This document shows positions 1 to 24,066 of a stretch of DNA of 64,000 nt, in pieces. The stretch's first letter is position 1, and each line of letters begins with the position of its first letter. A model generated the notes under the pieces. It was not told where the DNA came from and made no database searches. It saw only the letters and a program-made list of their open reading frames with translations. The stretch covers positions 3,844,001 to 3,908,000 of the forward strand of contig NZ_CP155071.1 in NCBI RefSeq assembly GCF_039621855.1, given 5' to 3'. This DNA comes from Erwinia sp. HDF1-3R (GTDB lineage Bacteria; Pseudomonadota; Gammaproteobacteria; Enterobacterales; Enterobacteriaceae). The translations under genes and the position numbers were made by a program.

Positions 1-1433
1 AAAACTAATTTGTAATTTTTAGCATCAGGCCGTATCATATGATCAGCTAATTTTATATGGGCAGGGAGTTTCTCATTTAGTTTTCCTCGGAACTCTGAAT
101 CGCTTATGAAAAGTTCAGAACCGACAAATCCTTGTGAGAAAAGATGGCTCATACTTTGTGAACCACTATAATATTTCACATGGATAAAATCTGATGCATC
201 TTTAATAAGGTCGCAAAATTCAATTTTACTTTTACCCCCGCCGTGATGAATAAATTTTTGATCCATATGTGTAAATGTTTTGTCAATAAGACACACATTT
301 TCATTGTAGTCTTCTTCTCTCTTAAAGGAGTATACCGGAAATTTATCAGACTCCTCATAATGTAGAATTTTTCTCATCTCATCATCAATTGTTGTTACGA
401 ATTTTCTATCGGCCACATACCATATGGAGTCTCGCAGGATATAGTTTTGATCGCCTTCTTTTATTTCAGCATAAATGCATCTATACAAAGACCATTTCTT
501 TATCGATTCATAATCGGCATTCAAAACATGCAAGCAACTTCTTTTAAGTTCATCAACAGTAACATCCGCATTTTTTCCATTAAAATATTCACATATGTGA
601 TCGACTGACAAGCTTTCATAAATAATACTTCTTTGTCTTCTCTCGAAACAATATCCTATTTGATTTTCCCAATCCACAATTTCTGGCTCACCAAGCCATA
701 TGTCACTGAAGTCTCTTTGTTTTATTAAATCAATTAAAATAGAATCCAATATCTCAATTTCTGCCTCATCGGCTTCTTTGATATTATTAACCCATTCAAA
801 TTCTTCAGGAAGAGGTGACTGATAAATAGATTCTATTTTCGTTAATAACTCAGGTATTGATTTTAAGTCAACATCAGGAACAATTACAAAGGCATCTTTG
901 CCCGTTATTTTATTTCCTAAAACGTCTTCAGTGGAAGTGCCTGTAAGGGTTGTTAGAATATCCATCTCAGAATCTATTTTGAGATTGTATATATCAACTT
1001 CCTTACTGCTCTGACTACGAGTTAGAATATTTGTTTCGTTATGACTACCTTTATCCAAGCTACGGATTTTTTTATGCTCGATACAGTTTAATGTTGTTTT
1101 AAGACCAAAACCTTTGACGATACGGTCATCATTGATTAAGTGATGGCCGGTTCCGAACGGAATAAGATATCTCGTGTTATCAACTTCTATAACCAGAACT
1201 GCTCCAGTGCTACTATTCATACCGAAGAAATCGGGCTTTATGTCCGCCTTTTGGCTTGTAAATAAAGTTGTCCACTCAGGTAGCACTGGGTCTGAAATTT
1301 GCTTTGCATAAAGGTATGCTCTTGCATCATTCATTTCAAATTCAATAGGTTTTTGGACCCTTTCCAAATTCAAAATTTGATCAATATCGTCCGTAATTCT
1401 CTTTGCTTTATAAATTGAAAGTTTTATCTTCAT
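1..1433 (-). CDS. DUF6119 / TIGR04141-type sporadically distributed protein (3' end outside window)
   Basis: An open frame runs without a stop from an ATG at 1433 to the left edge, giving at least 477 residues. It starts MKIKLSIYKAKR. A core segment near residue 418 reads HVKYYSGSQSMSHLF, preceded by a segment rich in acidic and aromatic residues (VCLIDKTFTHMDQ). This pattern fits the family I know as TIGR04141/DUF6119: sporadic proteins of roughly 550 residues, found on mobile elements, with no function I can name. A GGGA ribosome site precedes the ATG. The gene begins only 18 bases after the hxsA stop on the same strand, so it is probably co-transcribed with the hxs genes. The C-terminus is missing because of the window edge. 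Family assignment is from memory of motifs, not a search. Confidence 0.62.
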   Translation of the reverse strand, partial: MKIKLSIYKAKRITDDIDQILNLERVQKPIEFEMNDARAYLYAKQISDPVLPEWTTLFTSQKADIKPDFFGMNSSTGAVLVIEVDNTRYLIPFGTGHHLINDDRIVKGFGLKTTLNCIEHKKIRSLDKGSHNETNILTRSQSSKEVDIYNLKIDSEMDILTTLTGTSTEDVLGNKITGKDAFVIVPDVDLKSIPELLTKIESIYQSPLPEEFEWVNNIKEADEAEIEILDSILIDLIKQRDFSDIWLGEPEIVDWENQIGYCFERRQRSIIYESLSVDHICEYFNGKNADVTVDELKRSCLHVLNADYESIKKWSLYRCIYAEIKEGDQNYILRDSIWYVADRKFVTTIDDEMRKILHYEESDKFPVYSFKREEDYNENVCLIDKTFTHMDQKFIHHGGGKSKIEFCDLIKDASDFIHVKYYSGSQSMSHLFSQGFVGSELFISDSEFRGKLNEKLPAHIKLADHMIRPDAKNYKLV

Positions 1434-1451
1434 TATTTTATTCCCAATATC

Positions 1452-2090
1452 TTATCGGGCAAGTATATTTAATGAGTTCAATAACTCAGTGTCTAATGTT
1501 TCTCTTGCTGGAGTAGGCAATCCATTCGCTACTCTATAATTCTTGATGGCATTTCGTGTTGCAGGCCCCATACTTCCGTCAATATTACCGTTATAGAAGC
1601 CTTTATCGAGTAATGCGAATTGCACTCTCATGATTAACCGCTTACGTTTTTCTGTATCCGAAGTCAGCCCACTACTTGCACGGTTGGCACCTGTGGTTCC
1701 TGGTGAGTTTGTTGTAGTTGAGCTATCAGTATCATTAGAGCGAAGTGAACGGACAGTGGAGGAGGAAGACGATGACGAACGAGTTCCTGAACTGGATGAA
1801 TCTGAGGTGCTTGGTGAGCTGTATGTTTTGGGATAGTAAGGGGTGCTTCCACCATAGTAGCCACCGCCTGATGAAGAACGGTGTGAGCTGTGGCTACGGT
1901 GAGAACTGTGACTTCTGTGTCCTGCAATGTAGAACGGCACTTCGGTATTGAGAGGGGCTATCACCAAATCATGCTCATTCAGGGTCATACCAGGTAAGTC
2001 ACTGGCACCAGTAGATGAATCACTTGCCCAAACAGAGTTATTAAGAGCCAAAAATCCAGGAAGCAGAGCAGCGAAATTAAATTTTTTCAT
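1452..2090 (-). CDS. hxsA: His-Xaa-Ser repeat protein HxsA, presumed radical-SAM substrate
   Basis: This 212-residue protein is the likely modification target of the neighbouring radical SAM enzymes. Residues 1-23 form a probable signal peptide (MKKFNFAALLPGFLAL... with a VWA-S cleavage site). Residues 58-72 hold five consecutive His-x-Ser triplets (HRS HSS HRS HSS HRS), followed by Gly/Tyr-rich and long Ser/Thr-rich linkers. About residues 152-195 form a peptidoglycan-binding-1-like domain (VQFALLDKGFYNGNIDG, then GPATRNAIKNY). The ATG at 2090 is chosen because it gives a signal peptide and overlaps the hxsC stop in an ATGA. A longer frame to 2168 is rejected. The combination of export signal, repeat and wall-binding domain matches the HxsA family. 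The modification and final role are unknown to me. Confidence 0.85.
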   Translation of the reverse strand: MKKFNFAALLPGFLALNNSVWASDSSTGASDLPGMTLNEHDLVIAPLNTEVPFYIAGHRSHSSHRSHSSHRSSSGGGYYGGSTPYYPKTYSSPSTSDSSSSGTRSSSSSSSTVRSLRSNDTDSSTTTNSPGTTGANRASSGLTSDTEKRKRLIMRVQFALLDKGFYNGNIDGSMGPATRNAIKNYRVANGLPTPARETLDTELLNSLNILAR

Positions 2091-3199
2091 ATTATTGGTC
2101 TCGGAGGTTGATGAAAACGGCCTTTTGATGAACTGAAATAACCAGCACAGGAAGACTTCTGAGTGCATTCATCACATTCTTTTGGATAGTAATTTTTCCA
2201 GTCAGAGATCGACTGTGTAGCAAAGCCCCATGCCCTTTCAGGAAGGTGACATAATGGATAATTGAAGATGGTAAGAGGGATACCTGACCTGTGTGCAGTG
2301 TCTAAAGCCGAAAGGATTTGTTCGCTGTAGTTGTCGTGCTCTATGAAGATTGATGACCAGTTCTTACGGGCCCATCCAATCGACTCTAACCCCATCAGGG
2401 AGATCTGGTTAATGTTAGAGAACACTCGGCCAGCAAACTCAACGATGTCATCAAGCTCTGTATAGTTCGCCTGAGTAGGGATGACTCTCAGTTCTATGTT
2501 AATCCCTGAGTTACCAGCATTGATCAGCCCCCTGACGGTATCATCAAATGCACCCTCGCTTCCTACCAGATAGTCATGAACTGTTGCTCTTGAAGAATAA
2601 AGAGGAATGCCAAAAGTGATTTTGATCTTTTCGCTTCGTTCTTTCATCTGCTGAGTGAAGCTGACATCAGCAAACTTCCGTCCGTTGGTTAGAACATGCA
2701 GAGCTGTATCAGGAGAGTTCTCGATGATGAAATCGAGGAAGTGCAGTAAGTCTTCGCCGTAGAGCAAAGGCTCTCCCCCGCTCACTCCCACTACTCCATT
2801 CAGAGAGAAGGAAGCGATAGCGAGAGCTGACTGGTTGAGAAGCCAGTCATCGTTTCCAGCTTTAGGAGGCTGAGAACAAAACAGGCAACTGTTGTTGCAC
2901 CTTTCAGTGACCAGGACAGTGTTATGGTTTGCTCTACGGGACAGAATTACCCGGAGCATGTTGCCGTTGTTGACGATCCCAATGTCACCATCTTCAATGG
3001 AATCGAAAAGTTCCCGGCTCACAATCGAGTCTGCAAAATATACAGGCAGTCTGGAATCGAGTTGTGTTGCAGTGACAAGCAAATTTGGCAGATAGAATTG
3101 AGGATTTTCGGGCTTGGTTTTGCATAGGCGATAGAAGCCTTGATGAACTGGCAAGTCCGATGAAAACCGAAAAATATCGTTTCTCAGCACCTCAGACAT
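2087..3199 (-). CDS. hxsC: His-Xaa-Ser system radical SAM maturase HxsC
   Basis: A 370-residue radical SAM protein. The [4Fe-4S]/SAM motif CNNSCLFC lies near residue 101 and is followed by GVSGGEPLLYG, the usual SAM-contact segment of the fold. The C-terminus carries further cysteines (ECDECTQKSSC) that could bind an auxiliary cluster. With hxsB it forms the two-maturase pair typical of the His-Xaa-Ser system, expected to alter the repeat region of HxsA in the cytoplasm before export. It overlaps hxsB by 8 bases and hxsA by 4, which implies translational coupling. All canonical cysteines are present, so the enzyme looks intact. The chemistry of the modification cannot be read from the sequence. 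Confidence 0.85.
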   Translation of the reverse strand: MSEVLRNDIFRFSSDLPVHQGFYRLCKTKPENPQFYLPNLLVTATQLDSRLPVYFADSIVSRELFDSIEDGDIGIVNNGNMLRVILSRRANHNTVLVTERCNNSCLFCSQPPKAGNDDWLLNQSALAIASFSLNGVVGVSGGEPLLYGEDLLHFLDFIIENSPDTALHVLTNGRKFADVSFTQQMKERSEKIKITFGIPLYSSRATVHDYLVGSEGAFDDTVRGLINAGNSGINIELRVIPTQANYTELDDIVEFAGRVFSNINQISLMGLESIGWARKNWSSIFIEHDNYSEQILSALDTAHRSGIPLTIFNYPLCHLPERAWGFATQSISDWKNYYPKECDECTQKSSCAGYFSSSKGRFHQPPRPII

Positions 3200-4586
3200 A
3201 AGCCCACCTTTTGAGCATCTCAGTCATTGGTCCATCCTGAGAGATTTCATTCAGCAGGAAGCGGAACATCCCTTTGTGATACTGGCAGAAGGTTGACCGA
3301 CTCTTGTCACCAACAGGCTCGCCATGAACACTGATGTTCTGACAAGGATCTGCTCCACAGAAAGGCTGATATGCACACGTGTCACAACCCGGCATGGCAA
3401 AGTTAAATGATGATGAGAGAGCGGAACGGTAATATTCGTTGCTACTGAATGACAGTGAGGCAAACTCTCCTGCACTGAAATCTGCTTCCGGGTTTACTTT
3501 CTGAAGCATACGGCTTTCATCGCTACCGTAGACCTTGCCATCATAGTTGAACAGGATGCAGTTCAGCACGACTCCGCTTGGTGATTTCAGATCTGCATAA
3601 CCACTGAAGCCTGGATTGAAAATCCGCTTTAGATGGATTGAGGCTGAGTGCTCAACGACAGGTATGCCCTTCTGATTCTGAATCAACACTTCCTGCATCA
3701 ACTCTTTATAAAAATCAAAATATTCAGGCATTGAAAGAGTGAAGCTCTGCTTCTGAGCAAACCCATAAGGACTTACCGGCCTGATAAACATGTCGGTTAG
3801 GTCAAGAGACAGATGAGCATCTACTATGGAAGCTGGCTCTTTTGTCAGCTCCTTAGTAACTGTGGTTACCGTAGCTACCCGGTTTGCTCCCAGCTCTTCT
3901 GTGATTTTTCTAATGCCCGTGACGGCTTTGTTGTGAGCCTGAGAATCGGTGAGGATACGGTTTTTATTATGGACGGCTTCATTACCATCAAGAGACACAG
4001 AAAAGGTGATATTCCGGTCTTCAACCCAAGAGAGGATACTTTCATCGAGTATTGAGAGACTCGTGGCAATAACCATTTCAAAAGCATCACTACCTAACGA
4101 ACTCACACACTCCTCGTAAATTGACTGGACGATATCGAACCTGAGAAGCGGTTCTCCGCCCTGAACTTCTATTTTGTAAGGTGAAGTGCCCAGCTTCTTA
4201 ATAGTGCTGACGATTTGTGGTATCAGTCCGGGGTTCAGGTCATAGCCGTCAGCGGTAACCGATGCTCTACTGACCTGACAATACTTGCATGTGTGATCGC
4301 ACCTGAGAGTCGGCACAATCATGAAGATTGGTCTGACGGCCAGTTCGTTCATCAGTCGCTTGGCAAAGGCCGAACTAAGTGAGGCTTTTGAAACTGCCTG
4401 ATTCGCATCGTCTGCAATGAACAATCTGCTTTCAAGTAGCCGGGAGGTTGTTTGTTCAGAAGGAAATTTGTTATCGGCAAGAAGATGTAGCTCTTCGTCA
4501 TTGACGAAGCTGTGAAAGCCAGCAAGGTTGCTGATGAAGACTTTGCCATTGCTCAGGCGGTCAAAGTTGAATGGCATAGTGTTCAT
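3192..4586 (-). CDS. hxsB: His-Xaa-Ser system radical SAM maturase HxsB
   Basis: A 464-residue radical SAM/SPASM-type peptide maturase. The cluster-binding motif CDHTCKYC lies near residue 99, followed by EVQGGEPLLRFD. The C-terminal region has the cysteine pattern of a SPASM-like auxiliary-cluster domain (GCDTCAYQPFCGADPC, then a later FCQYH). The N-terminal 90 residues lack cysteines and may recognise the substrate or bind HxsD. The gene sits between hxsD (4-base overlap) and hxsC (8-base overlap) in a compact leftward operon. This architecture and order match the HxsB family. The role in modifying HxsA is inferred from family context. Confidence 0.86.
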   Translation of the reverse strand: MNTMPFNFDRLSNGKVFISNLAGFHSFVNDEELHLLADNKFPSEQTTSRLLESRLFIADDANQAVSKASLSSAFAKRLMNELAVRPIFMIVPTLRCDHTCKYCQVSRASVTADGYDLNPGLIPQIVSTIKKLGTSPYKIEVQGGEPLLRFDIVQSIYEECVSSLGSDAFEMVIATSLSILDESILSWVEDRNITFSVSLDGNEAVHNKNRILTDSQAHNKAVTGIRKITEELGANRVATVTTVTKELTKEPASIVDAHLSLDLTDMFIRPVSPYGFAQKQSFTLSMPEYFDFYKELMQEVLIQNQKGIPVVEHSASIHLKRIFNPGFSGYADLKSPSGVVLNCILFNYDGKVYGSDESRMLQKVNPEADFSAGEFASLSFSSNEYYRSALSSSFNFAMPGCDTCAYQPFCGADPCQNISVHGEPVGDKSRSTFCQYHKGMFRFLLNEISQDGPMTEMLKRWAYV

Positions 4587-4855
4587 TGAGAGAGTCTCGT
4601 ATCGATGCTCCTCAAAACATTGTCGATGATAGAAGCCCTGACCTGTCCTGTATGTGCCTGAAGCTTCTCCCTGAGCTTGTAATCATTCAGCAATCGCTCA
4701 AACTCGAACTCAACCTCGTCGTTCCAGAGTTCGAACGAAACGAGCCAGTTCTGATCGTTTTCATCAAGCTTCCAGCGGGTAACAGCACTCATCCAATAGA
4801 GGCTGTTACGAAGCACCCATTCAGAATACATTGTTTTTGATATGTTTTTTTGCAT
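4583..4855 (-). CDS. hxsD: His-Xaa-Ser system protein HxsD
   Basis: A 90-residue, acidic and aromatic protein without cysteines, first gene of the hxs operon. It has a WKLDENDQNWLVSFELW segment followed by a charged helical stretch (EFEFERLLNDYKLREKL) that recalls the small peptide-recognition partners of radical SAM maturases. HxsD is the usual small partner of HxsB and HxsC; acting as an adaptor that presents HxsA is an inference. A GGATGG sequence lies upstream of the ATG at 4855. Its stop overlaps the hxsB start. The operon promoter should lie in the AT-rich gap 4856-5176. Confidence 0.78.
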   Translation of the reverse strand: MQKNISKTMYSEWVLRNSLYWMSAVTRWKLDENDQNWLVSFELWNDEVEFEFERLLNDYKLREKLQAHTGQVRASIIDNVLRSIDTRLSQ

Positions 4856-5176
4856 AACATTACCATCCAGAAAGTATCAAGGAAGGAATCAAAAATTTTT
4901 GTTTATCTTTCAAAGAAAGCAATAAACCTCGAAAAAAATGACCATAAACAGCAATATCAAACAACCATTTGTTTTTATTACATTTTATTTTATTGAGTTA
5001 CAGAAGATTCTTATTCTGCAATAATAATCATCATGGATCAAAATGTAAATTTGTTTTGAAAAGTTTTATGATGCATGTCAGTATGATTACTATAATTAAT
5101 GATTTGATTGCATTTAGACCAATAAGGACTTTTACCTAAGCTATTGATTTCAATGTAATGATGGAGACTCCCTCTA
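4856..5176. promoter_or_regulatory. AT-rich divergent intergenic region upstream of hxsD
   Basis: This 320-base gap separates the leftward hxs operon from the rightward 84-residue gene at 5177. It is strongly AT-rich, has no coding frame I can support, and must contain the promoter of the hxs operon. AT-rich DNA of this kind is a usual target of H-NS-type proteins, one of which is encoded on the island. No convincing operator was picked out by eye. Confidence 0.4.
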
Positions 5177-6492: not shown

Positions 6493-6885
6493 ATGGAAAA
6501 AATAAATATTATTTTCGATGATGAGTTTCCTTCTTCATTTACCAATGATCCTATGGCAAAGAAGCTACCGCCTAATCGTCTTCGCAGATACTCTGTGACT
6601 GTCAGATTAAATGAGGTTGAGCTGAGCAAACTAAACCATTCAAGAGGACAGCTAAGCAGGAGCTGTTGGCTGAGATCTTCAGCTTTCAAGCAATTGCCTC
6701 CCTTAGTTCCAGAAGTGAACAAAGAAGCCTGGCATCAACTGACGGCTTCTCTGCAAAAGTTGAATGACCTCACTTCATTTCTTATTCGTCGCGGATCGGA
6801 TGCTCAGCCTTTAAGTAATGAGGTCGATACTCTCAGGCTGAAGCTATCTCATGTGAGAGATGCCCTGCTCTCACTCGATAAGTGA
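6493..6885 (+). CDS. MobC-like mobilisation accessory protein
   Basis: A 130-residue protein, probably the relaxosome accessory factor that binds oriT and helps the relaxase. The central segment (RLRRYSVTVRLNEVELSKL) has the strand-plus-helix layout of ribbon-helix-helix MobC-type proteins, followed by SRSCWLRSSAFKQLP, the region usually conserved in MobC. The C-terminal half is helical. AAGGAG precedes the ATG. Its end abuts or overlaps the relaxase start, the usual mobC-mobA arrangement. Confidence 0.68.
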   Translation: MEKINIIFDDEFPSSFTNDPMAKKLPPNRLRRYSVTVRLNEVELSKLNHSRGQLSRSCWLRSSAFKQLPPLVPEVNKEAWHQLTASLQKLNDLTSFLIRRGSDAQPLSNEVDTLRLKLSHVRDALLSLDK

Positions 6886-6895
6886 TTTTCCGCTC

Positions 6896-8026
6896 GTGAA
6901 AGGAATGCAAAAAATCCGCAGGGGTAAGTGCTTCAAAGGTGTTGTCTCATATGCACTTGCCCCAGCATCTCATCACAAAACAGCTCCTGTAATAATCGGC
7001 GGTAACATGATTGGCTTATCTGTCGATGAGGTGACTGTTGAGTTCATGCGAACACAGAAGCTCCGCCCAGATGTGCAGAAACCTGTCTGGCACAACTCTC
7101 TTCGCCTTCCTGTAGGAGATTCAATCAGTAATGAGCAGTGGAAGCTTGTTGCTGACGACTATATGAAGCGAATGGGCTTCAGTGATACTCATCTCCGTTG
7201 CTATGTCCTCCATGATGACGAGGCCGGCCAGCACATACACATAATTGCTTCTCGCATCCGTATACCTGATGGCCAGCTCTACCTCGGCAGAAATGAGAAC
7301 CTCATCAGCACCAAGATCATTCATGAGCTTGAGCGTGATCATCTGCTTACACGAACCAAAGGTCCATCTCCTCCTTCAGCACCCAAAGTCAGGAAAGCTG
7401 GCAGGAATGAAGAAATGATGGAAGCAAGGATAGGCAACAAAGCACCAAAGAAAATCATTCAGGAAGCAATTGAGGCTGTGCTGAGTTTCTATGGCACCAT
7501 CACCATTGACGATTTCATCTATGAACTCGGTAAGCAAAATATAACAGCCAAAGCGAACATTGCTTCCACGGGTAAAATGAATGGTTTCTCATTTGAGTAT
7601 GCAGGAATCGCCTTCAAAGCCTCCCAGTTAGGTAAAGCCTACTCATGGTCGAGTCTGAGCCAGAAGGTTACCCTCACCGCTACTGTCGAGCCTCATGTGA
7701 TTGATGATGCAGGGTTGCCTGAGGAGGAGTCAGAAGCAATAGAAAGACTGGCTAACATATATGACGAGCCAATGTTCCACTCCCCTGCTATTCCACATAT
7801 TGAGGAGCCGAATATCAAACAGAATGGCAGGGTTCGCTGGCTACTATGGGTGCCATACCTGAAGCAGATTATCCAGGCCTTGAAAGCAACGGGTCTGAGC
7901 ATTCTCAAGCCGTCAATCAAGATGAAACCTTTCCCCTTCGTTACCCCCACCCAAAACCTTGGCGATAAAGAACTACTCGCAATCATCAAAGAAAGCACTA
8001 CTGGGAAAAAAAGATTTTCTTTTTGA
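6896..8026 (+). CDS. MobA/VirD2-type relaxase (mobilisation nuclease)
   Basis: A relaxase of about 376 residues that would nick oriT and pilot the strand during conjugative transfer. The histidine motif GQHIHIIASRI (near residue 118) is the metal-binding HxH signature of this class, and an N-terminal MQKIRRGKCFKGVVSYAL contains the likely catalytic tyrosine. The GTG at 6896 is chosen because relatives commonly start just before the GMQKI segment. An ATG at 6860, overlapping mobC, and an ATG at 6905 are alternatives, and no strong ribosome site decides. No mating-pair or coupling-protein genes are visible, so transfer would need a helper element. Confidence 0.8.
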   Translation: MKGMQKIRRGKCFKGVVSYALAPASHHKTAPVIIGGNMIGLSVDEVTVEFMRTQKLRPDVQKPVWHNSLRLPVGDSISNEQWKLVADDYMKRMGFSDTHLRCYVLHDDEAGQHIHIIASRIRIPDGQLYLGRNENLISTKIIHELERDHLLTRTKGPSPPSAPKVRKAGRNEEMMEARIGNKAPKKIIQEAIEAVLSFYGTITIDDFIYELGKQNITAKANIASTGKMNGFSFEYAGIAFKASQLGKAYSWSSLSQKVTLTATVEPHVIDDAGLPEEESEAIERLANIYDEPMFHSPAIPHIEEPNIKQNGRVRWLLWVPYLKQIIQALKATGLSILKPSIKMKPFPFVTPTQNLGDKELLAIIKESTTGKKRFSF

Positions 8027-13166: not shown

Positions 13167-13589
13167 TTACTCTTTATGAGATTTCTCTCTATCAACTGGT
13201 ATTAGTGGGGCATTTAGTTGATGTTCTTTAATACCATATTTGTAAGCATTAAACTGCCATATTATGAACTGTTGTTTTAAAACTCTGACTTCTTCTTTGA
13301 GCGATTCATTTTTCAACTGCAAATTTTTTATCTGCTGTGAAGCAATGTTGAGATTTGCAGGTCTTTTGACTTCAGATGCTCCAGATTTTATGTTCTTCTT
13401 TTGAAGCTCAAAAGCCCTAACTATCTCTTTATGCTGACTAAGGGATTGTCTTGTCGGTCTCTTACCCAGAAGCTCTGTAACAGAGTCACAAAGGTTTTCC
13501 CAGGTAAACTTACCCTGCTTTGAACCTTGCCAACCTGCAATACAATTTATAATTATTTGTAGATCTTTATTGGTTAGGTGTTTGGCCAT
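13167..13589 (-). CDS. Coiled-coil accessory protein of the recombinase unit (TnpC/GmtX-like)
   Basis: A 140-residue protein. Residues 1-60 look like an HTH-type segment (FTWENLCDSVTELLGKRPTR). Residues 83-108 form a heptad-like coiled coil (QQIKNLQLKNESLKEEVRVL). It overlaps the 610-residue recombinase by 23 bases as the fourth member of a coupled operon. Small coiled-coil proteins accompany paired tyrosine recombinases in Tn554 (TnpC) and in gamma-mobile-trio elements (GmtX). Which of these it belongs to, if either, needs a profile search. Role probably to assist or direct recombination. Confidence 0.6.
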   Translation of the reverse strand: MAKHLTNKDLQIIINCIAGWQGSKQGKFTWENLCDSVTELLGKRPTRQSLSQHKEIVRAFELQKKNIKSGASEVKRPANLNIASQQIKNLQLKNESLKEEVRVLKQQFIIWQFNAYKYGIKEHQLNAPLIPVDREKSHKE

Positions 13590-15399
13590 TAATTTTCTCC
13601 TTGTTTGTTATCTTGTCATCCTTCTTCATTTCTAAAATCCGAGACAGGTGTGAAAAATCGTCACCATGTGTTCTTATAAGCGAACCATCAGGTAGTTCGG
13701 GATTTTCCATCAATGCAACAATCCCCTTCACTCTTTCAAGTGTCTTGGTTTGATGCTGATACCACTTGTCAGCCCCAAGTTCCTCTTCACTGATAGCTTC
13801 TTTAGCCTTATCAACGAGGTCTTTGGTCGTATCAAGTAAGGACCTGAGCCTTTCGAATTTCTGCTTCTCCCCTTTGACACATACCTGCTCACTACAGTTG
13901 ATACAATCAAAGTATTTGCTACAGGGAGCAAAAGTATAATCATGTACACAATATCCATACTCAGTAGTATGAACAGCACCATGCTCTAACTTATTTTTTA
14001 ATTCATGAATAGTTGAAATTTCAAAGTTCTCATTCACATCACTATCGCAGGGAATTATGTTATTTTGATTAATCCCCAGAGCTTTCACTTTTTCAATCAT
14101 TTCATCTTCAGTGATGTGGTTATAAACTCTGTTCTGGGTAATGGACACTCTACCTGACCACTTTGCTATGTCCAGTTCTCCGAGGCCTCCTCTCTGGGCG
14201 AGAGTGTTGAGTAAATGTCTTGCTTGATGAGTTCTGAGAAATAATGGTTTATTATCCTCATCGTGATAACCATGCCTTTCGAAAAGATTCTTATGCTTAC
14301 TGATTTTTGAATAGCCTAACTCTTTAGAGAAGAAGGTATTTGTTATTTTAAACAAATCATTACCAGTTTGACGTTTCATGCTGAGCTGATTATCGAATAG
14401 AGCACAAAGAGCATTACTGAAGCGAACATCCTTTTCCTTATCAAACCAGATTTCTCCGCCTCCTTCTTTTTTCATCTCTTCCTCAAGTATCTTACTTCTT
14501 GCTCTTGAATTTTCAGATAACTTTAACAATCTCTTAATTGCAAGTTTGGCAGTAGGAACCATAATTTCAGGTATCCACTTAATGTTCGCCCCAAAGCCTT
14601 TCAATGAATAGAATCTCAGACCATAGCATTCTTTTCCTTCCCTATTCTTTTCAACAATTTCACAATCAGCTCTAAGTGATAATATTTCAGTTATACGACT
14701 GGGTGCGCACATCAGCAATGCAAACACTGAAGTAACAAACAGGTCTCTTTCGTGAAGGTCATAATCATGCATAGAAAAGATCTCACCAATTGCTCGTAAT
14801 GCTTTTTCATTAGGCAGTTTCGCTAATCTGGCATTGTCTGCATTATCAGAGATCGACAGCCTTGATTCAGGTGGTCTGATGTAACTACTCCACTTCATTA
14901 ATCCACAATTAAGGATTTCTTTCTCATTCAGGAAAGCAACCAATCTCTCCATAAATTTACCACAACTATATGCAACTCCTTTAGTGTAGTTTTCATTAAT
15001 GTCTGACAAGCATTCATCGAGAATTACTGGGTTTAGTGATTTTATGTCACCAGACCCAGTTAAGGCTAAAAGATTTTTTTCAATCACCCTAAGCACAATG
15101 GGAAAAGTTAGTTTATCGAATCCTCTAAGATTAGAGCAAAAAATATATGCTACATATGATTTGCAAAACCCAATGTAAGAGTAATCAAGATCTTCTGCCT
15201 TACTGAACGAGTCCAACTTAACATTCTTTATCTTAAATTTAGAAAATTTAAATATTTTCTTCCAATGATTACTCTCCCATTTGTTATCAAATAGATTTCC
15301 ACTTAGTTGTTCTTTGCAATTTAGAATAAATTCGTTAAGATTTTTCTCTGCTAAGATTTCTGTTCTATTCCTAAAATTGATTATATCACTTTCATTCAT
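13567..15399 (-). CDS. Large tyrosine recombinase with C-terminal cysteine cluster
   Basis: A 610-residue tyrosine recombinase. Catalytic-domain signatures are all present: box I arginine in CAPSRITEILSLR, HxxRH in RTHQARHLLNTL, a tryptophan at the His/Trp position (DIAKWSGR) and the nucleophile in QNRVYNHIT. After the catalytic core, residues about 480-520 hold cysteines (GYCVHDYTFAPCSKYFDC, then INCSEQVC) suggesting a zinc site, followed by a helical tail. Size and tail resemble TnpB of Tn554-type elements. It overlaps the neighbouring recombinase by 8 bases and the accessory gene by 23. It appears intact. Confidence 0.75.
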   Translation of the reverse strand: MNESDIINFRNRTEILAEKNLNEFILNCKEQLSGNLFDNKWESNHWKKIFKFSKFKIKNVKLDSFSKAEDLDYSYIGFCKSYVAYIFCSNLRGFDKLTFPIVLRVIEKNLLALTGSGDIKSLNPVILDECLSDINENYTKGVAYSCGKFMERLVAFLNEKEILNCGLMKWSSYIRPPESRLSISDNADNARLAKLPNEKALRAIGEIFSMHDYDLHERDLFVTSVFALLMCAPSRITEILSLRADCEIVEKNREGKECYGLRFYSLKGFGANIKWIPEIMVPTAKLAIKRLLKLSENSRARSKILEEEMKKEGGGEIWFDKEKDVRFSNALCALFDNQLSMKRQTGNDLFKITNTFFSKELGYSKISKHKNLFERHGYHDEDNKPLFLRTHQARHLLNTLAQRGGLGELDIAKWSGRVSITQNRVYNHITEDEMIEKVKALGINQNNIIPCDSDVNENFEISTIHELKNKLEHGAVHTTEYGYCVHDYTFAPCSKYFDCINCSEQVCVKGEKQKFERLRSLLDTTKDLVDKAKEAISEEELGADKWYQHQTKTLERVKGIVALMENPELPDGSLIRTHGDDFSHLSRILEMKKDDKITNKEKINGQTPNQ

Positions 15400-16924
15400 A
15401 TCTATTGCTCCTTTGTAATTTTAAAGTCTCACATTTTTTTACTACTTCTTCTACAGCCATTATTGTTCTGTCTAATGTTTTACTCATTGTTTCATCATTA
15501 GTATCAGTCATGATTCTTTCTCTTTGTTTTAATAAATGATCTCGTAGTTCTATATGTGGTGCATCAATAAATGGTCGAAAGTGATGGCAGGTATAACAAG
15601 GGACTGGAACATTAGCCTGACATGATTTACAACCACCACATGCTCCAGTGACCTCCCCTGATAAATCCCTTATTGCTAATTCATTTTTCTTTATTGAATT
15701 ATCACCCTGAATTTTACCCTGGAAAAAACCAGCATATTTTTGCATTTGGTTTCCCACTGCTTCTTCAATTCTTGCAACATGATCAGCATTAAACTCAACG
15801 TACACCCCCGTATATTGAGTTGTGGAGTGATCTAATAGTTCTGCAATGACTAATTCGCTGGCACCTTCTCTCGCAGCTCTTGTGCCAACCGTATAACGAA
15901 ATCGTCGAGGGTTTACATTTAATCTTTCATAAGTTCTTTCCGAAATAATATTTTCTGTTTTAGCAATAAAAGTAAGTGTCTTATTTATCTTCACAGAGTA
16001 TTCGTGAGCTTTATCCGATACAAATATTTCTCTCAGTTCGTTATTGATTTTGAAGCTTTCTAACTTTTGCATTGATATAAATAGCGGTGTATTTCCAAGT
16101 TCTTTATCAGTTAACTCTCTTTTAAGTGTGCTACGAGTTTTTTCGATGCTCAAATCACACTGCTTACGGAGTAAATCGTACAATTCTTTTGTCACCTGAA
16201 AGTTTCTAAAAGCTTCTCTGAATCCCAAGCCTTGCTTTATCCTTGGGATGCTAATAACATAAGAATAGCTGTTCTCATTTACTTTTAATCTTCTTATATC
16301 AGATACCTTCATCTGTGAAATCTGTAGTGGCCTTCTTCCAGTTGCGCTTATCAGCAAAGCCATTGCTAATTGAGTAATATCTATGTTTCCCTTATCATAT
16401 GCTCTATAGCAAGCTTCAAGAAAAGATTGTAATTCGATATCAGTAAATGGGCCTTTAACTTGATCTCTTCTTCTTACGACTTCTCCTTTTTTATTGTCAG
16501 GGATTATCAATTTACACAAGAAATCATATGCATCTTCATCTATTCCAGAGTAGCCCAATTCATACCATTTTTTTATGAGTATCCTTACCGATGACATAAT
16601 ATTATTGTTCTTGCCATCAGATCCTCTAAACCTCACAAGGGAAAACTCATCAACTCGCTTTGGCTTTACCTTTACAATAAACCTCCTGAAATTATTATTT
16701 ATTAATTTAACTGAAGCAGGACTTAACTCACAAGCCAGATATTTAAGCACCTTTAAGTATCCTTCCATTAATTCTCTATCAATTACATCCTTAACCATTT
16801 TAATATTTACCGTCACATTTCGGCTTAGCCTCCATGCCTCATCATTTAGAGAAAAGTAATAACCTTTCGTTTTAGCTTCATAAGCGCTCTCATTATCTTC
16901 ACTAACAACATCTACTTTTAACAT
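15392..16924 (-). CDS. Tyrosine recombinase with altered box II histidine
   Basis: A 510-residue tyrosine recombinase family protein. The box I arginine lies in SATGRRPLQISQM. Box II reads NPRRFRYTVGTRAA, where the usual histidine of HxxR is an arginine while the second arginine is kept. The third histidine (LLDHSTTQY) and the tyrosine (GVYVEFN) are present. A cysteine-rich tail (ACGGCKSCQANVPVPCYTC, then HHF) probably binds zinc. It overlaps both neighbours by 1 and 8 bases. The substituted histidine may reduce cleavage activity, making it a structural or regulatory partner, or may be normal for its subfamily. Confidence 0.72.
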   Translation of the reverse strand: MLKVDVVSEDNESAYEAKTKGYYFSLNDEAWRLSRNVTVNIKMVKDVIDRELMEGYLKVLKYLACELSPASVKLINNNFRRFIVKVKPKRVDEFSLVRFRGSDGKNNNIMSSVRILIKKWYELGYSGIDEDAYDFLCKLIIPDNKKGEVVRRRDQVKGPFTDIELQSFLEACYRAYDKGNIDITQLAMALLISATGRRPLQISQMKVSDIRRLKVNENSYSYVISIPRIKQGLGFREAFRNFQVTKELYDLLRKQCDLSIEKTRSTLKRELTDKELGNTPLFISMQKLESFKINNELREIFVSDKAHEYSVKINKTLTFIAKTENIISERTYERLNVNPRRFRYTVGTRAAREGASELVIAELLDHSTTQYTGVYVEFNADHVARIEEAVGNQMQKYAGFFQGKIQGDNSIKKNELAIRDLSGEVTGACGGCKSCQANVPVPCYTCHHFRPFIDAPHIELRDHLLKQRERIMTDTNDETMSKTLDRTIMAVEEVVKKCETLKLQRSNRYE

Positions 16925-18126
16925 TAAACACCTCCTCTATTAATCATATCTTTCTGCATATTCAGAGCTAACTCTGCGGCCTTGTTTTCGGTGAATCTTC
17001 TGTTATAAGTAGAAGCAGTCCCCGAACCCTCTTTCCAGCCCATGAGTAAAGACCTCATTTGTTCTTGCTCATATTGATTTGGTGGACTCTCCATGCGGTC
17101 CATCTTTGAAGAAAATTCATAATTCCAGGTGTGTCTTAATTTATGCCCTGTCATTCTGGAAAGTTCCGGGCAAGAAATCCTTAGGGCATTAATGATTTTA
17201 TGATATGCCTGAATAGATAATGGTTCTCCAAAGGTATTTCCCTTTTTATGACAAATAAAAAGATAACCATTATCCTTTTTCATTCTGTGCTTTCTTCTTT
17301 CGACTTTAATATAATTGGAAATTTCCTGACTTAAGTCATCAGATATAGACAACTTTCTACTTAATGTTTTAACGAGCGGTTGTTTAATCCTTGAGTCATG
17401 AGGATCATCAGCTCTTCTGTTTATAAAAATTGTCTGAGAACCTATATCAATATCTTCGATTTTGATGTTTAGTAGCTCTCCTGCCCTCAATCCCAAGTTA
17501 TAAAGAATCTGTATCATTAGTCTATTTCGCCTTTGAACATCAGAATTAAATGGATTCATTTCTGAACCTATTTTCAAAATCTCAAACAAAATATTAATTT
17601 GATTTTGATTGAGGTTTCTATCTTTTGCTGAATCTTGGTTCCTGAATCTGATCTTAGGTCTATGACTTTTCAATTTCGCAATGAACTTTTCGATAAGCTT
17701 GTGATCTCTTTTATAACTCACTGTGAAAAAGTCACATAACCATTCAAGATATTTAATAATTGCTGTTAATCTGAAGTACTGAGTATTACTATTAACCTTG
17801 CACCCACTATCAAGACTTGCAACCTTCTCTTTTTTCATTCTCTTAGTTATAAATTCTTTTAGTCCATCAATCTCTTGAAGATTAAGAAACTCTGCTGTTC
17901 TGATCCTTGCCTCTATATCTATCTTCTTAAAATTTAAAAACCTGTAAAACAAAGCTATACTCGCTGAATGTAGCTCAATAGTTGAAATAGATTCGTTCTT
18001 CTTTCTTAATTCTGATGATATATATAAACATGGATAATAAAGTGGCACTTTTGAAACTTTATCAGTGATTATGCAACATCTCTCCCCTGTATCCATTATT
18101 ATTGTATTAGTTACTATTCTATCCAT
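16924..18126 (-). CDS. Tyrosine recombinase, first gene of the recombinase operon
   Basis: A 400-residue tyrosine recombinase. Residues 1-170 are an N-terminal core-binding region. The catalytic domain has box I YNLGLRAGELLNIKIED, box II MTGHKLRHTWNY, a tryptophan at the third position (LLMGWKEGSG) and the nucleophile in TASTYNRRF. All residues needed for strand exchange are present. It is the promoter-proximal gene of a leftward operon of overlapping genes (400, 510, 610 and 140 residues). A long AT-rich gap with repeated motifs lies upstream. Three recombinases in a row suggests a recombinase-in-trio or gamma-mobile-trio type element. Confidence 0.78.
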   Translation of the reverse strand: MDRIVTNTIIMDTGERCCIITDKVSKVPLYYPCLYISSELRKKNESISTIELHSASIALFYRFLNFKKIDIEARIRTAEFLNLQEIDGLKEFITKRMKKEKVASLDSGCKVNSNTQYFRLTAIIKYLEWLCDFFTVSYKRDHKLIEKFIAKLKSHRPKIRFRNQDSAKDRNLNQNQINILFEILKIGSEMNPFNSDVQRRNRLMIQILYNLGLRAGELLNIKIEDIDIGSQTIFINRRADDPHDSRIKQPLVKTLSRKLSISDDLSQEISNYIKVERRKHRMKKDNGYLFICHKKGNTFGEPLSIQAYHKIINALRISCPELSRMTGHKLRHTWNYEFSSKMDRMESPPNQYEQEQMRSLLMGWKEGSGTASTYNRRFTENKAAELALNMQKDMINRGGV

Positions 18127-21465: not shown

Positions 21466-24066
21466 TTGAGTACTTCTAAAACCATAAAAATGAGTAAATT
21501 CAATATGAAAGAGTCTATAGACAAGGACTTTTCCACCCATACTCCGATGATGCAGCAGTACCTGCGCCTCAAGGCTGAGCATCCGGAAATCCTGCTGTTT
21601 TATCGCATGGGGGATTTCTATGAACTGTTTTATGACGATGCCAAACGTGCATCACAGCTGCTTGAAATTTCCCTGACCAAACGCGGTGCCTCCGCCGGTG
21701 AACCCATTCCGATGGCCGGTGTACCCTATCATGCCGTGGAAAACTACCTGGCTAAGCTGGTGCATCTGGGTGAATCCGTTGCTATCTGTGAGCAGATTGG
21801 CGACCCGGCAACGAGCAAAGGTCCGGTTGAGCGCAAGGTCGTGCGTATTGTTACGCCGGGTACCATTAGCGATGAAGCGCTGCTTCAGGAGCGGCAGGAT
21901 AATCTGCTGGCAGCCATCTGGCAGGGCCCGCGCGGCTTTGGCTTCGCGACGCTTGATATCAGCTCAGGGCGCTTTCGCCTTGCAGAGCCAACCGATAACG
22001 AAACCATGGCTGCCGAGCTGCAGCGCACGAATCCCGCTGAACTCCTCTATTCAGAAGATTTTGCGGCCATGTCACTCATTGATAACCGTCGCGGTCTGCG
22101 TCGCCGTCCGCTGTGGGAATTTGAGGTAGAAACGGCCCGCCAGCAGCTGAATATGCAGTTTGGCACCCGCGATTTGAGTGGCTTCGGCGTCGAGCAGGCC
22201 GAGCTGGCGCTGCGGGCAGCGGGCTGCCTGTTGCAGTATGCAAAGGATACGCAGCGTACCTCGCTGCCGCATATCCGCTCGCTGACCATGGAGCGCCAGC
22301 AGGATGGCATCATCATGGATGCTGCCACCCGGCGTAATCTGGAGATTACTCAGAATCTGGCCGGAGGCAGTGAAAACACCCTGGCCTCGGTGCTGGATAA
22401 AACCGTTACGCCGATGGGTAGCCGCATGCTAAAACGCTGGCTGCATATGCCGGTGCGTGACAGCCAGATTATCATTAACCGTCAGCAAAGCATTGGCGCA
22501 CTGCAGGATTTTTCTGCCGAACTCTCACCGCTGCTGCGCCAGGTTGGCGATCTTGAGCGGATCCTGGCGAGGTTGGCGCTCCGTACCGCTCGGCCTCGCG
22601 ATCTTGCCCGTATGCGCCATGCCTTCCAGCAGCTTCCGCAGCTGGATGCCCTGCTGGCAGATTGTGAAACACCGCATCTGCAAACGCTGCGTACGCAGAT
22701 GGGTCAGTTTGAGGAGCTGCGGGCGCTACTGGAAAACGCTATCGTGGAAACGCCGCCGGTACTGGTGCGTGATGGTGGCGTGATTGCCCCGGGCTACAAT
22801 GCCGAACTGGATGAGTGGCGGGCGCTGGCGGATGGCGCGACCGATTATCTGGATCGCCTGGAGATCCGCGAGCGTGAGAAGCTGGGGCTGGATACGCTCA
22901 AGGTCGGCTTCAACGGCGTCCACGGCTACTATATCCAGGTGAGTCGCGGTCAGAGTCACCTGGTCCCCATTAACTATGTGCGCCGCCAGACGTTAAAGAA
23001 TGCCGAACGCTATATCATTCCCGAGCTGAAAGAGTACGAAGATAAAGTCCTCACGTCGAAAGGCAAAGCGCTGGCGCTGGAAAAATCGCTGTATGAGCAG
23101 CTGTTCGATCTTCTGCTGCCTCATCTTGAAGCGCTCCAGCTCAGTGCCGCCTCTCTTGCCGAGCTGGACGTGCTGGCCAACCTTGCCGAGCGCGCATGGA
23201 CGCTGAACTACGCCTGTCCGACCCTGAGCGACAAGCCGGGGATTAAACTGACTGGTGCGCGACATCCGGTGGTTGAGCAGGTGCTGAAAGAGCCGTTTAT
23301 CGCTAACCCACTTTCGCTATCGCCGCAGCGCCGTATGCTGGTGATCACCGGTCCGAATATGGGCGGTAAAAGTACCTATATGCGTCAGGCCGCCCTGATT
23401 ACGCTGATGGCGTACATTGGCAGCTATGTACCTGCTGAACAGGCACTTATTGGACCAGTGGACCGTATTTTCACCCGCGTCGGCGCGGCGGACGATTTGG
23501 CGTCTGGTCGCTCGACCTTTATGGTGGAAATGACCGAAACGGCCAATATTCTGCACAATGCCACCGAGCACAGCCTGGTACTGATGGATGAGATAGGTCG
23601 TGGTACCTCGACCTATGATGGTCTGTCGCTGGCCTGGGCCTGCGCTGAAAGCCTCGCGAGCCGTATTAAAGCCATGACGTTGTTTGCTACCCACTACTTT
23701 GAGCTGACCACGCTTCCCGAAAAAATGGAAGGCGTAGCCAACGTTCATCTGGACGCTATAGAGCACGGCGATACCATCGCCTTTATGCACAGCGTGCAGG
23801 AGGGGGCTGCCAGTAAAAGCTATGGTCTTGCGGTAGCCGCGCTGGCGGGCGTGCCTAAGGAAGTGATCAAACGCGCCCGGCAAAAGCTGAAGGAGCTGGA
23901 AACGCTGTCTGGCAACGCCGCAGCGACTCCGGGAGATGGCCCCCAGCTTCCGCTGCTGGTTGAGGAGACCTCTCCCGCAGTTGAAGCGCTGGAAGCACTG
24001 GATCCTGATTCTCTTTCACCACGCCAGGCACTGGAGTGGATTTACCGCCTGAAGTCTCTGGTGTAG
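21466..24066 (+). CDS. mutS: DNA mismatch repair ATPase MutS with island-derived N-terminus
   Basis: MutS recognises base mismatches and starts repair with MutL. From [14 protein letters not shown] onward it is nearly colinear with E. coli MutS: the mismatch-contact GDFYELF (Phe51, Glu53 in this numbering, normally 36 and 38), the Walker [14 protein letters not shown] near residue 628, the signature [10 protein letters not shown] and the Walker [15 protein letters not shown]. The first 21 residues ([20 protein letters not shown], then D) are unlike other MutS starts and come from island DNA. The listed start is TTG at 21466; ATG codons at 21490 and 21505 are alternatives, none with a strong ribosome site. 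The native promoter has been displaced, so expression probably depends on the island end. Confidence 0.93.

Follow-up and report, generated by a model that had tools for sequence, protein, structure and literature searches.

Background

The closest described relative of the locus analysed here is the Hxs system (TIGR03976-TIGR03979). PMC9062424 attributes the His-Xaa-Ser (H-x-S) motif to Haft and Basu and terms the modification of the H-x-S repeats by maturases putative. The same four genes, in the order D-B-C-A and with the same CxxxCxxC motifs and H-x-S repeats, are found in a 64,000-nt stretch of Erwinia sp. HDF1-3R (hereafter the window; coordinates prefixed L001 refer to DNA reaching before it), where they precede a gene of the TIGR04141/DUF6119 family. 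The locus differs from the described system by having an exchangeable gene (the cargo) in the slot behind the operon, which most of 14 distant plasmid loci lack by annotation. The protein whose gene starts in the window matches the TIGR04141/DUF6119 family over its full length and far above the cut-off; the family usually occurs without hxs. No functional study of Hxs genes, DUF6119 or TIGR04141 was found in the literature collection that we searched by name.

A second point of comparison is provided by the defence hotspots of P2 phages and P4 satellites, of which the P2 hotspot lies at cos, between A and Q, according to PMC9122126. Like our locus, these hotspots sit on a mobile element and hold changing defence genes flanked by conserved anchors, whereas here the anchor is an operon of the type making ribosomally synthesized and post-translationally modified peptides, it resides on a mobilizable island, and its cargo is co-oriented with it. 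The Gabija system, in turn, fills the same slot in the relatives E. coli G47-1 and A16, but not in this window.

An exchangeable cargo slot behind hxsA

Starting at the hxsA stop codon, closely related hxs cassettes continue into different genes on the same strand, several of which are known or probable defence genes. The DUF6119 gene is one of these cargoes and is mostly found without hxs. Seven distinct cargoes were distinguished behind close relatives of the Erwinia operon, all seven on the hxs strand: i) type A DUF6119, directly behind hxsA in the window and L206 (18 bp) and in L263 (20 bp); ii) type B DUF6119, 68 bp behind hxsA in E. coli F9792, FDAARGOS_946, PSJ-16, EC21Z-048 and TB182A (with an annotated frameshift in FDAARGOS_946 and in TB182A); iii) Gabija GajA-GajB in L046 (E. 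coli G47-1; PADLOC matches of 2.8e-274 for GajA and 1.5e-205 for GajB), in L200, at 99% identity to L046, and by annotation in L143 (A16); iv) a Gabija-like AAA-nuclease/UvrD pair in L207, placed by its identity to Gabija (25% for GajA, 22% for GajB) rather than by PADLOC scores; v) a SIR2 protein of 919 aa in L162, from the same genus as the window; vi) a PRTase-CE/ATPase of 1,085 aa in L161; and vii) an ATP-grasp trio starting 18 bp behind hxsA in L140. A stretch resembling a ribosome-binding site precedes the slot genes of the window, L206, L140 and L263, that is, type A DUF6119 and the ATP-grasp trio.

The position of the change was determined by pairwise comparison of 19 loci, in which 54 pairs (not independent of one another) combine two different cargoes with at least 88% identity. 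Homology ends between positions -22 and +3 relative to the hxsA stop codon in 52 of these pairs, representing 15 of 16 cargo pairings; for example, L161 and L200 are 97% identical up to +2, L138 and L200 97% up to 0, and L140 and L263 94% up to +1. On the other side, homology starts 100-230 bp upstream of hxsD in 39/54 pairs, and the remaining pairs share more of the island. All 31 pairs with the same filled slot stay homologous for at least 1.6 kb. Comparisons involving an emptied slot break in the same -22 to +3 interval in 26 of 38 cases and extend 15-103 bp in the other 12.

The emptied slots retain traces of their former content. About the first 100 bp past hxsA in L160 match the DUF6119 loci, and about 35 bp in L142 (a P2-like prophage) and L048 (a Klebsiella plasmid, the one plasmid read of 331 Klebsiella records with a match) correspond to the start of the ATP-grasp trio. 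These remnants indicate that cargo was lost while hxs was kept. We left transposases of insertion sequences (IS) and phage genes behind hxsA out of the cargo count, together with two same-strand genes behind the DUF6119 remnant of L160, one of which matches DUF3313. We also considered whether HxsA co-varies with its cargo, as the divergent HxsA of L207 might suggest; this was ruled out, as L161 and L200 have nearly the same HxsA with different cargoes.

A plain defence-island hotspot would produce a similar picture, with hxs as a conserved neighbour and recombination anchor and a cargo tied to it neither in regulation nor in function. Cargo varies on the far side of hxs as well (Kiwa, Pycsar, ABC-3C), five of the seven gaps, at 44-137 bp, are long enough for a promoter, and breaks at the gene end are expected from selection for an intact hxsA. 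Type A DUF6119 itself has been exchanged between L158 and L263, where the synonymous divergence (dS) is 0.12 for hxsB vs 1.03 for DUF6119. Such a hotspot accounts less well for the common orientation of all seven cargoes with hxs, for cargo starts at 18 bp (20 bp in L263) behind a ribosome-binding-site-like stretch, and for the capture of DUF6119 at least two times, and we consider it possible but unlikely. We lean instead, somewhat, towards a constant mobile cassette, consisting of the upstream region and hxsDBCA, that heads an exchangeable cargo slot, with DUF6119 as an autonomous defence cargo carried on the hxs transcript.

Architecture of the Erwinia operon

HxsA, HxsB, HxsC and HxsD are encoded contiguously in the window (Table 1), and all exceed the curated NCBIfam cut-offs (95 bits against 50 for HxsD, 573 against 370 for HxsB, 404 against 268 for HxsC and 160 against 122 for HxsA). 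As the initial annotation had stated, the four genes overlap by 4-8 bases and the large gene starts 18 bases further on, which we read directly from the sequence: hxsD/hxsB overlap by 4 bp, hxsB/hxsC by 8 bp and hxsC/hxsA by 4 bp, with the hxsA start at 2090. The longest hxsA open reading frame (ORF) starts at 2168; the start at 2090 instead yields an N-terminus resembling a signal peptide. HxsA has five H-x-S units in register at 58, 61, 64, 67 and 70 (mean of 1.1 in shuffled sequences), and the radical SAM CxxxCxxC motif is present in both HxsB and HxsC. HxsA is probably exported, because its hydrophobic N-terminus is signal-like (judged by eye) and a peptidoglycan-binding domain is present.

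Scans for promoters and terminators gave sites not above shuffled sequences. Sigma-70-like sites were fewer than in the shuffles, so the site at 5049-5021 is no more than a candidate promoter. No terminator-like site was found in the gap between the hxsA stop and the ATG of the DUF6119 gene. Since this gap is too short for a promoter or a terminator, hxsDBCA and DUF6119 are likely to share one transcript, unless a promoter lies inside hxsA. A conserved block upstream of hxsD in L138, L140, L161, L162, L200 and L263 includes the 14-bp palindrome CCGCTTTAAAGCGG, a possible operator; the window copy has no palindrome and hardly any of the block.

Table 1. Coordinates of the hxs operon, its slot gene and the surrounding island in the window and in the DNA before it (L001)
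Feature	Position	Strand	Evidence or remark
Slot gene TIGR04141/DUF6119, N-terminal 477 of 536 aa	1..1433	-	TIGR04141 2e-144; DUF6119 4e-112
Junction from hxsA stop to slot-gene ATG, 18 bp	1434..1451	-	Point of cargo change in relatives
hxsA, 212 aa	1452..2090	-	TIGR03979 4e-47; PG_binding_1 1.3e-5
hxsC, radical SAM maturase (CNNSCLFC)	2087..3199	-	TIGR03977 2e-121
hxsB, radical SAM maturase (CDHTCKYC)	3192..4586	-	TIGR03978 4e-172
hxsD	4583..4855	-	TIGR03976 2.6e-27
Upstream region, candidate promoter	4856..5050	-	One sigma-70-like site at 5049-5021 (10/12)
Relaxase	6860..8026	+	PF03432 1.8e-23; 62% over 262 aa to the relaxase of the E. coli 1283 element
Three consecutive genes, two with a Phage_integrase domain	13567..18126	-	
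Right end of the island, 78-bp repeat copy in the mutS 5' end	21486..21563	+	
Other copy of the 78-bp repeat, before the window	L001:6148-6225		25.3 kb away

Co-occurrence of hxs and DUF6119

The pairing of hxs with DUF6119 is not unique to this genome and recurs across Enterobacterales. Among 398 genomes of the phylum, TIGR04141 was found in 11 (12 loci) and HxsB above its cut-off in 14; hxs is adjacent to DUF6119 at three of the 12 loci (G000, G166, G300), and in G302 the two are present at a distance of about 17 kb. In 5,426 E. coli genomes, close DUF6119 DNA is present in 71 and hxsB DNA in 151, of which 14 loci were read gene by gene. A single place covers at least 80% of a joint DUF6119 and hxsA query in 70 of the 5,426, the overlap between the sets of 70 and 71 genomes not being listed genome by genome. 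These counts reflect few, largely clonal events, because 60 of the 71 share one identity band. One E. coli copy (L002, strain CT02) is decaying: its hxsD is interrupted by an IS3 element, and its TIGR04141 gene carries an annotated frameshift.

A different proportion is seen from the side of DUF6119. Of 79 DUF6119 loci from species genomes, hxs is present in three (Yersinia, Serratia and Enterobacter) and a relic of hxsD only in another three; no hxs was seen in the fetched DNA of the other 73, four of which (L063, L075, L092, L094) reach less than 3.7 kb upstream. The relics belong to two Pectobacterium and one Brenneria (L051, L052, L053), where about the first half of hxsD stands before an intact DUF6119 gene, and hxsB, hxsC and hxsA were not found in the DNA examined for these three loci. 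The ratio of nonsynonymous to synonymous divergence of DUF6119 among the three genomes is 0.08-0.10, i.e. the gene is under purifying selection; if the relic is older than their split, DUF6119 was kept without hxsB, hxsC and hxsA.

The type B protein of F9792 matches the DUF6119 Pfam family at 5e-27, with 17% identity to the window protein. In a tree excluding nine of the 79 loci (with internal stop codons or truncated at a contig end) and with F9792 and PSJ-16 for type B, the hxs-linked DUF6119 sequences do not form a single clade. This, together with the strong divergence of type B, indicates that the pairing arose at least two times.

The initial annotation had proposed a possible, undescribed five-gene system in which the DUF6119 protein could be the effector or sensor of the modified HxsA product or a partner in its processing. 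Its observational part holds, as the pairing is real, recurrent and arose at least twice, and the near agreement of the E. coli counts (70 genomes with DUF6119 and hxsA together vs 71 with close DUF6119 DNA), two independent captures and a partial co-divergence with hxs would all suit a dedicated system. An obligate unit is argued against by the 73/79 DUF6119 loci without visible hxs, by the exchange of the slot, in which unrelated genes stand behind closely related hxs, by hxs operons with an emptied slot, by the intact gene beside an hxsD relic, and by the occurrence of DUF6119 in type I restriction operons described below. We regard a dedicated five-gene system as highly improbable.

The DUF6119 protein and its defence context

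The assignment of the product of positions 1-1433 to DUF6119/TIGR04141, made in the initial annotation from the letters and translations, is borne out by profile searches. The complete gene (L001:9823-11433, minus strand) encodes 536 aa, with L001:9823-10000 as the part beyond the window; the TIGR04141 score is 482 bits for the window part against a cut-off of 35, and 536 bits at full length, over profile positions 1-516. The protein has no membrane-like segment and no matching model in PADLOC 2.0. Residues E373, D391, E405, D408, K420 and Q434 of its C-terminal part are invariant in 86 of 86 sequences. Judged by eye, these residues could belong to a PD-(D/E)XK fold; they resemble those of a metal-dependent nuclease, and the protein is possibly one. 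Alignment by hhalign gave probabilities of 1.4% against Mrr_cat and 0.4% against NOV_C, in a comparison where the positive control, Mrr vs NOV_C, also reached only 0.9%. The same genome has a second DUF6119 gene, 40% identical, at L144:9575-11176 (C1, about 4.22 Mb), with no hxs within the 20 kb read; a 904-aa NB-ARC/TPR protein and an integrase of the same type (36%) are encoded nearby.

Outside hxs loci, some DUF6119 genes keep company with restriction systems. In four type I restriction loci, of Asticcacaulis (L117), Cognatishimia (L123), Roseicyclus (L125) and Sedimentitalea (L127), the DUF6119 gene is inserted between the specificity-subunit (S) gene and the restriction (R) gene with overlaps of 4-8 bp, and in the cyanobacterial L112 the two genes, DUF6119 and R, have 8 bp in common. 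The Pfam searches covered two S genes (L123, L125), two R genes (L127, L112) and one M-type gene (L097), the others being assigned by clustering; PADLOC gave six R and six S matches among DUF6119 neighbours. Other genes preceding DUF6119 include an Mrr-type restriction gene (L068), a DprA-like gene (L055) and one with a below-cut-off match to the Shedu C-terminus (L120). The nearest neighbours (137 of 140 proteins, three being dropped for length) matched 251 PADLOC models vs 32 for 113 proteins encoded at least 7.5 kb away, a contrast that is only qualitative because the models are redundant and the near proteins longer. Given these neighbouring defence genes and type I restriction operons, DUF6119 is most likely a defence gene.

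More distant hxs operons

Genes found behind farther hxs operons encode a patatin (L157, 14 bp away), another SIR2 protein (L150, 310 bp away), a malic enzyme (L163) and a MauG-like protein (L164); in L154, an ORF occupying the place of hxsA is followed after 43 bp by the gene of a trypsin-like protease. These loci bear on a reading modelled on cyclic-oligonucleotide-based antiphage signalling systems (CBASS), with Hxs acting in sensing or maturation and the interchangeable 3' gene serving as its effector: HxsA, modified and located at the envelope, would sense infection and license whichever effector occupies the slot, which would define a modular class of defence systems. Effector-like genes do stand directly behind hxs, namely SIR2, PRTase-CE/ATPase, the ATP-grasp trio and DUF6119, and in distant loci the patatin, the protease and the second SIR2. 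Gabija, however, is complete by itself, hxs and DUF6119 each persist without the other, HxsA is apparently exported, and the 14 distant plasmid loci mostly lack cargo by annotation, the malic enzyme and MauG-like neighbours adding to this. We consider a sensor-effector arrangement rather improbable. If it were true, Hxs would be a constant sensing or priming module for DUF6119, SIR2, PRTase-CE/ATPase and the ATP-grasp trio, and for patatin or protease in distant relatives.

A general rule of Hxs plus effector is likewise weakened by the mostly bare plasmid loci and by the malic enzyme and MauG-like genes. Because distant plasmid loci are, by annotation, mostly bare behind the operon, the slot is established for the enterobacterial clade only.

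The mobile island

The window copy lies on a 25.3-kb element with a 78-bp direct repeat (88%) at its ends; the repeat is made by the mutS 5' end, which suggests that the island was inserted at the start of mutS. Two of the three genes at its integrase-bearing end resemble (39% and 29%) genes located at the corresponding end of the E. coli 1283 element, and a serine recombinase and two ParB-like genes of the island lie in L001, before the window. By its gene content (recombinase, relaxase and terminal direct repeats), the element is an integrative mobilizable island. Kiwa, Pycsar or, by annotation, ABC-3C genes are present on related E. coli islands, several of which lie at ssrA.

Operons without cargo were also observed beside P2-like phage genes (L045, L142, L196-L198), where hxsDBCA is flanked by ogr and a D-type gene, both on the opposite strand. 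Location at the published cos hotspot was ruled out for these prophages by this position.

Proposed roles of the cassette and its cargo

In the constant-cassette reading that we prefer, a cargo with an 18-bp gap would be transcribed by read-through from the hxs promoter region, as its spacing suggests. HxsB and HxsC would modify HxsA, which would then be exported and bind peptidoglycan. Its envelope function would be separate from DUF6119 and would spread without cargo on the P2-like prophage and the Klebsiella plasmid. The DUF6119 protein, judging from its context and motif, would work alone in the cytoplasm on invading DNA, possibly as a metal-dependent nuclease acting through E373, D391, E405, D408 and K420. 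Its autonomy is suggested by the 73/79 loci without hxs, the restriction-operon loci and selection beside the hxsD relic. Direct action of HxsA on DUF6119 is unlikely, because HxsA looks exported and DUF6119 has no membrane-like segment; the suggestion in the initial annotation that the DUF6119 protein serves modified HxsA thus finds little room, given also its autonomy in restriction operons and beside the relic.

Several observations weigh against this reading. The change of cargo at a fixed point may reflect mere recombination between conserved anchors. Homology between L140 and L159 extends 29 bp past the hxsA stop, and in L206/L207, which are 95% identical on both flanks of their different cargoes and differ in the 3' parts of hxsA, good homology stops 372 bp before the hxsA stop and is followed by 194 bp at 67%. 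Four loci (L195, L200, L206, L207) are contigs of a viral collection, with content that looks like that of the same islands. Distances of type A DUF6119 and HxsB correlate over seven loci (r = 0.68, with 108 of 5,040 permutations as high; 0.96 for HxsB vs HxsC), so their history is partly joint. In the 14 distant plasmid Hxs loci, assessed by annotation only, no named defence effector lies directly behind the operon, with two exceptions: in Methylobacter, hxsC is followed by a thermonuclease-family gene, and in Acidiphilium, the gene of an AAA ATPase lies 380 bp behind the operon; the gene tables of these loci are incomplete, hypothetical proteins were not scanned, and one record ends behind hxsC. 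As to the nuclease, a PDB profile search gave nothing for the whole family and one match, with an E-value of 0.59, for the C-terminal domain, and H418 is replaced by A in both type B sequences; with neither a profile nor a structure match, the nuclease idea depends solely on the invariant residues.

Conclusions

The enterobacterial hxs loci provide a set of natural genetic experiments, comprising closely related cassettes that differ in their cargo, cargo genes lacking hxs and hxs operons lacking cargo, in which both parts can be tested. The hxsA stop codon can serve as an anchor for finding defence genes in Enterobacterales, and DUF6119 emerges as a candidate defence protein outside the PADLOC 2.0 models.

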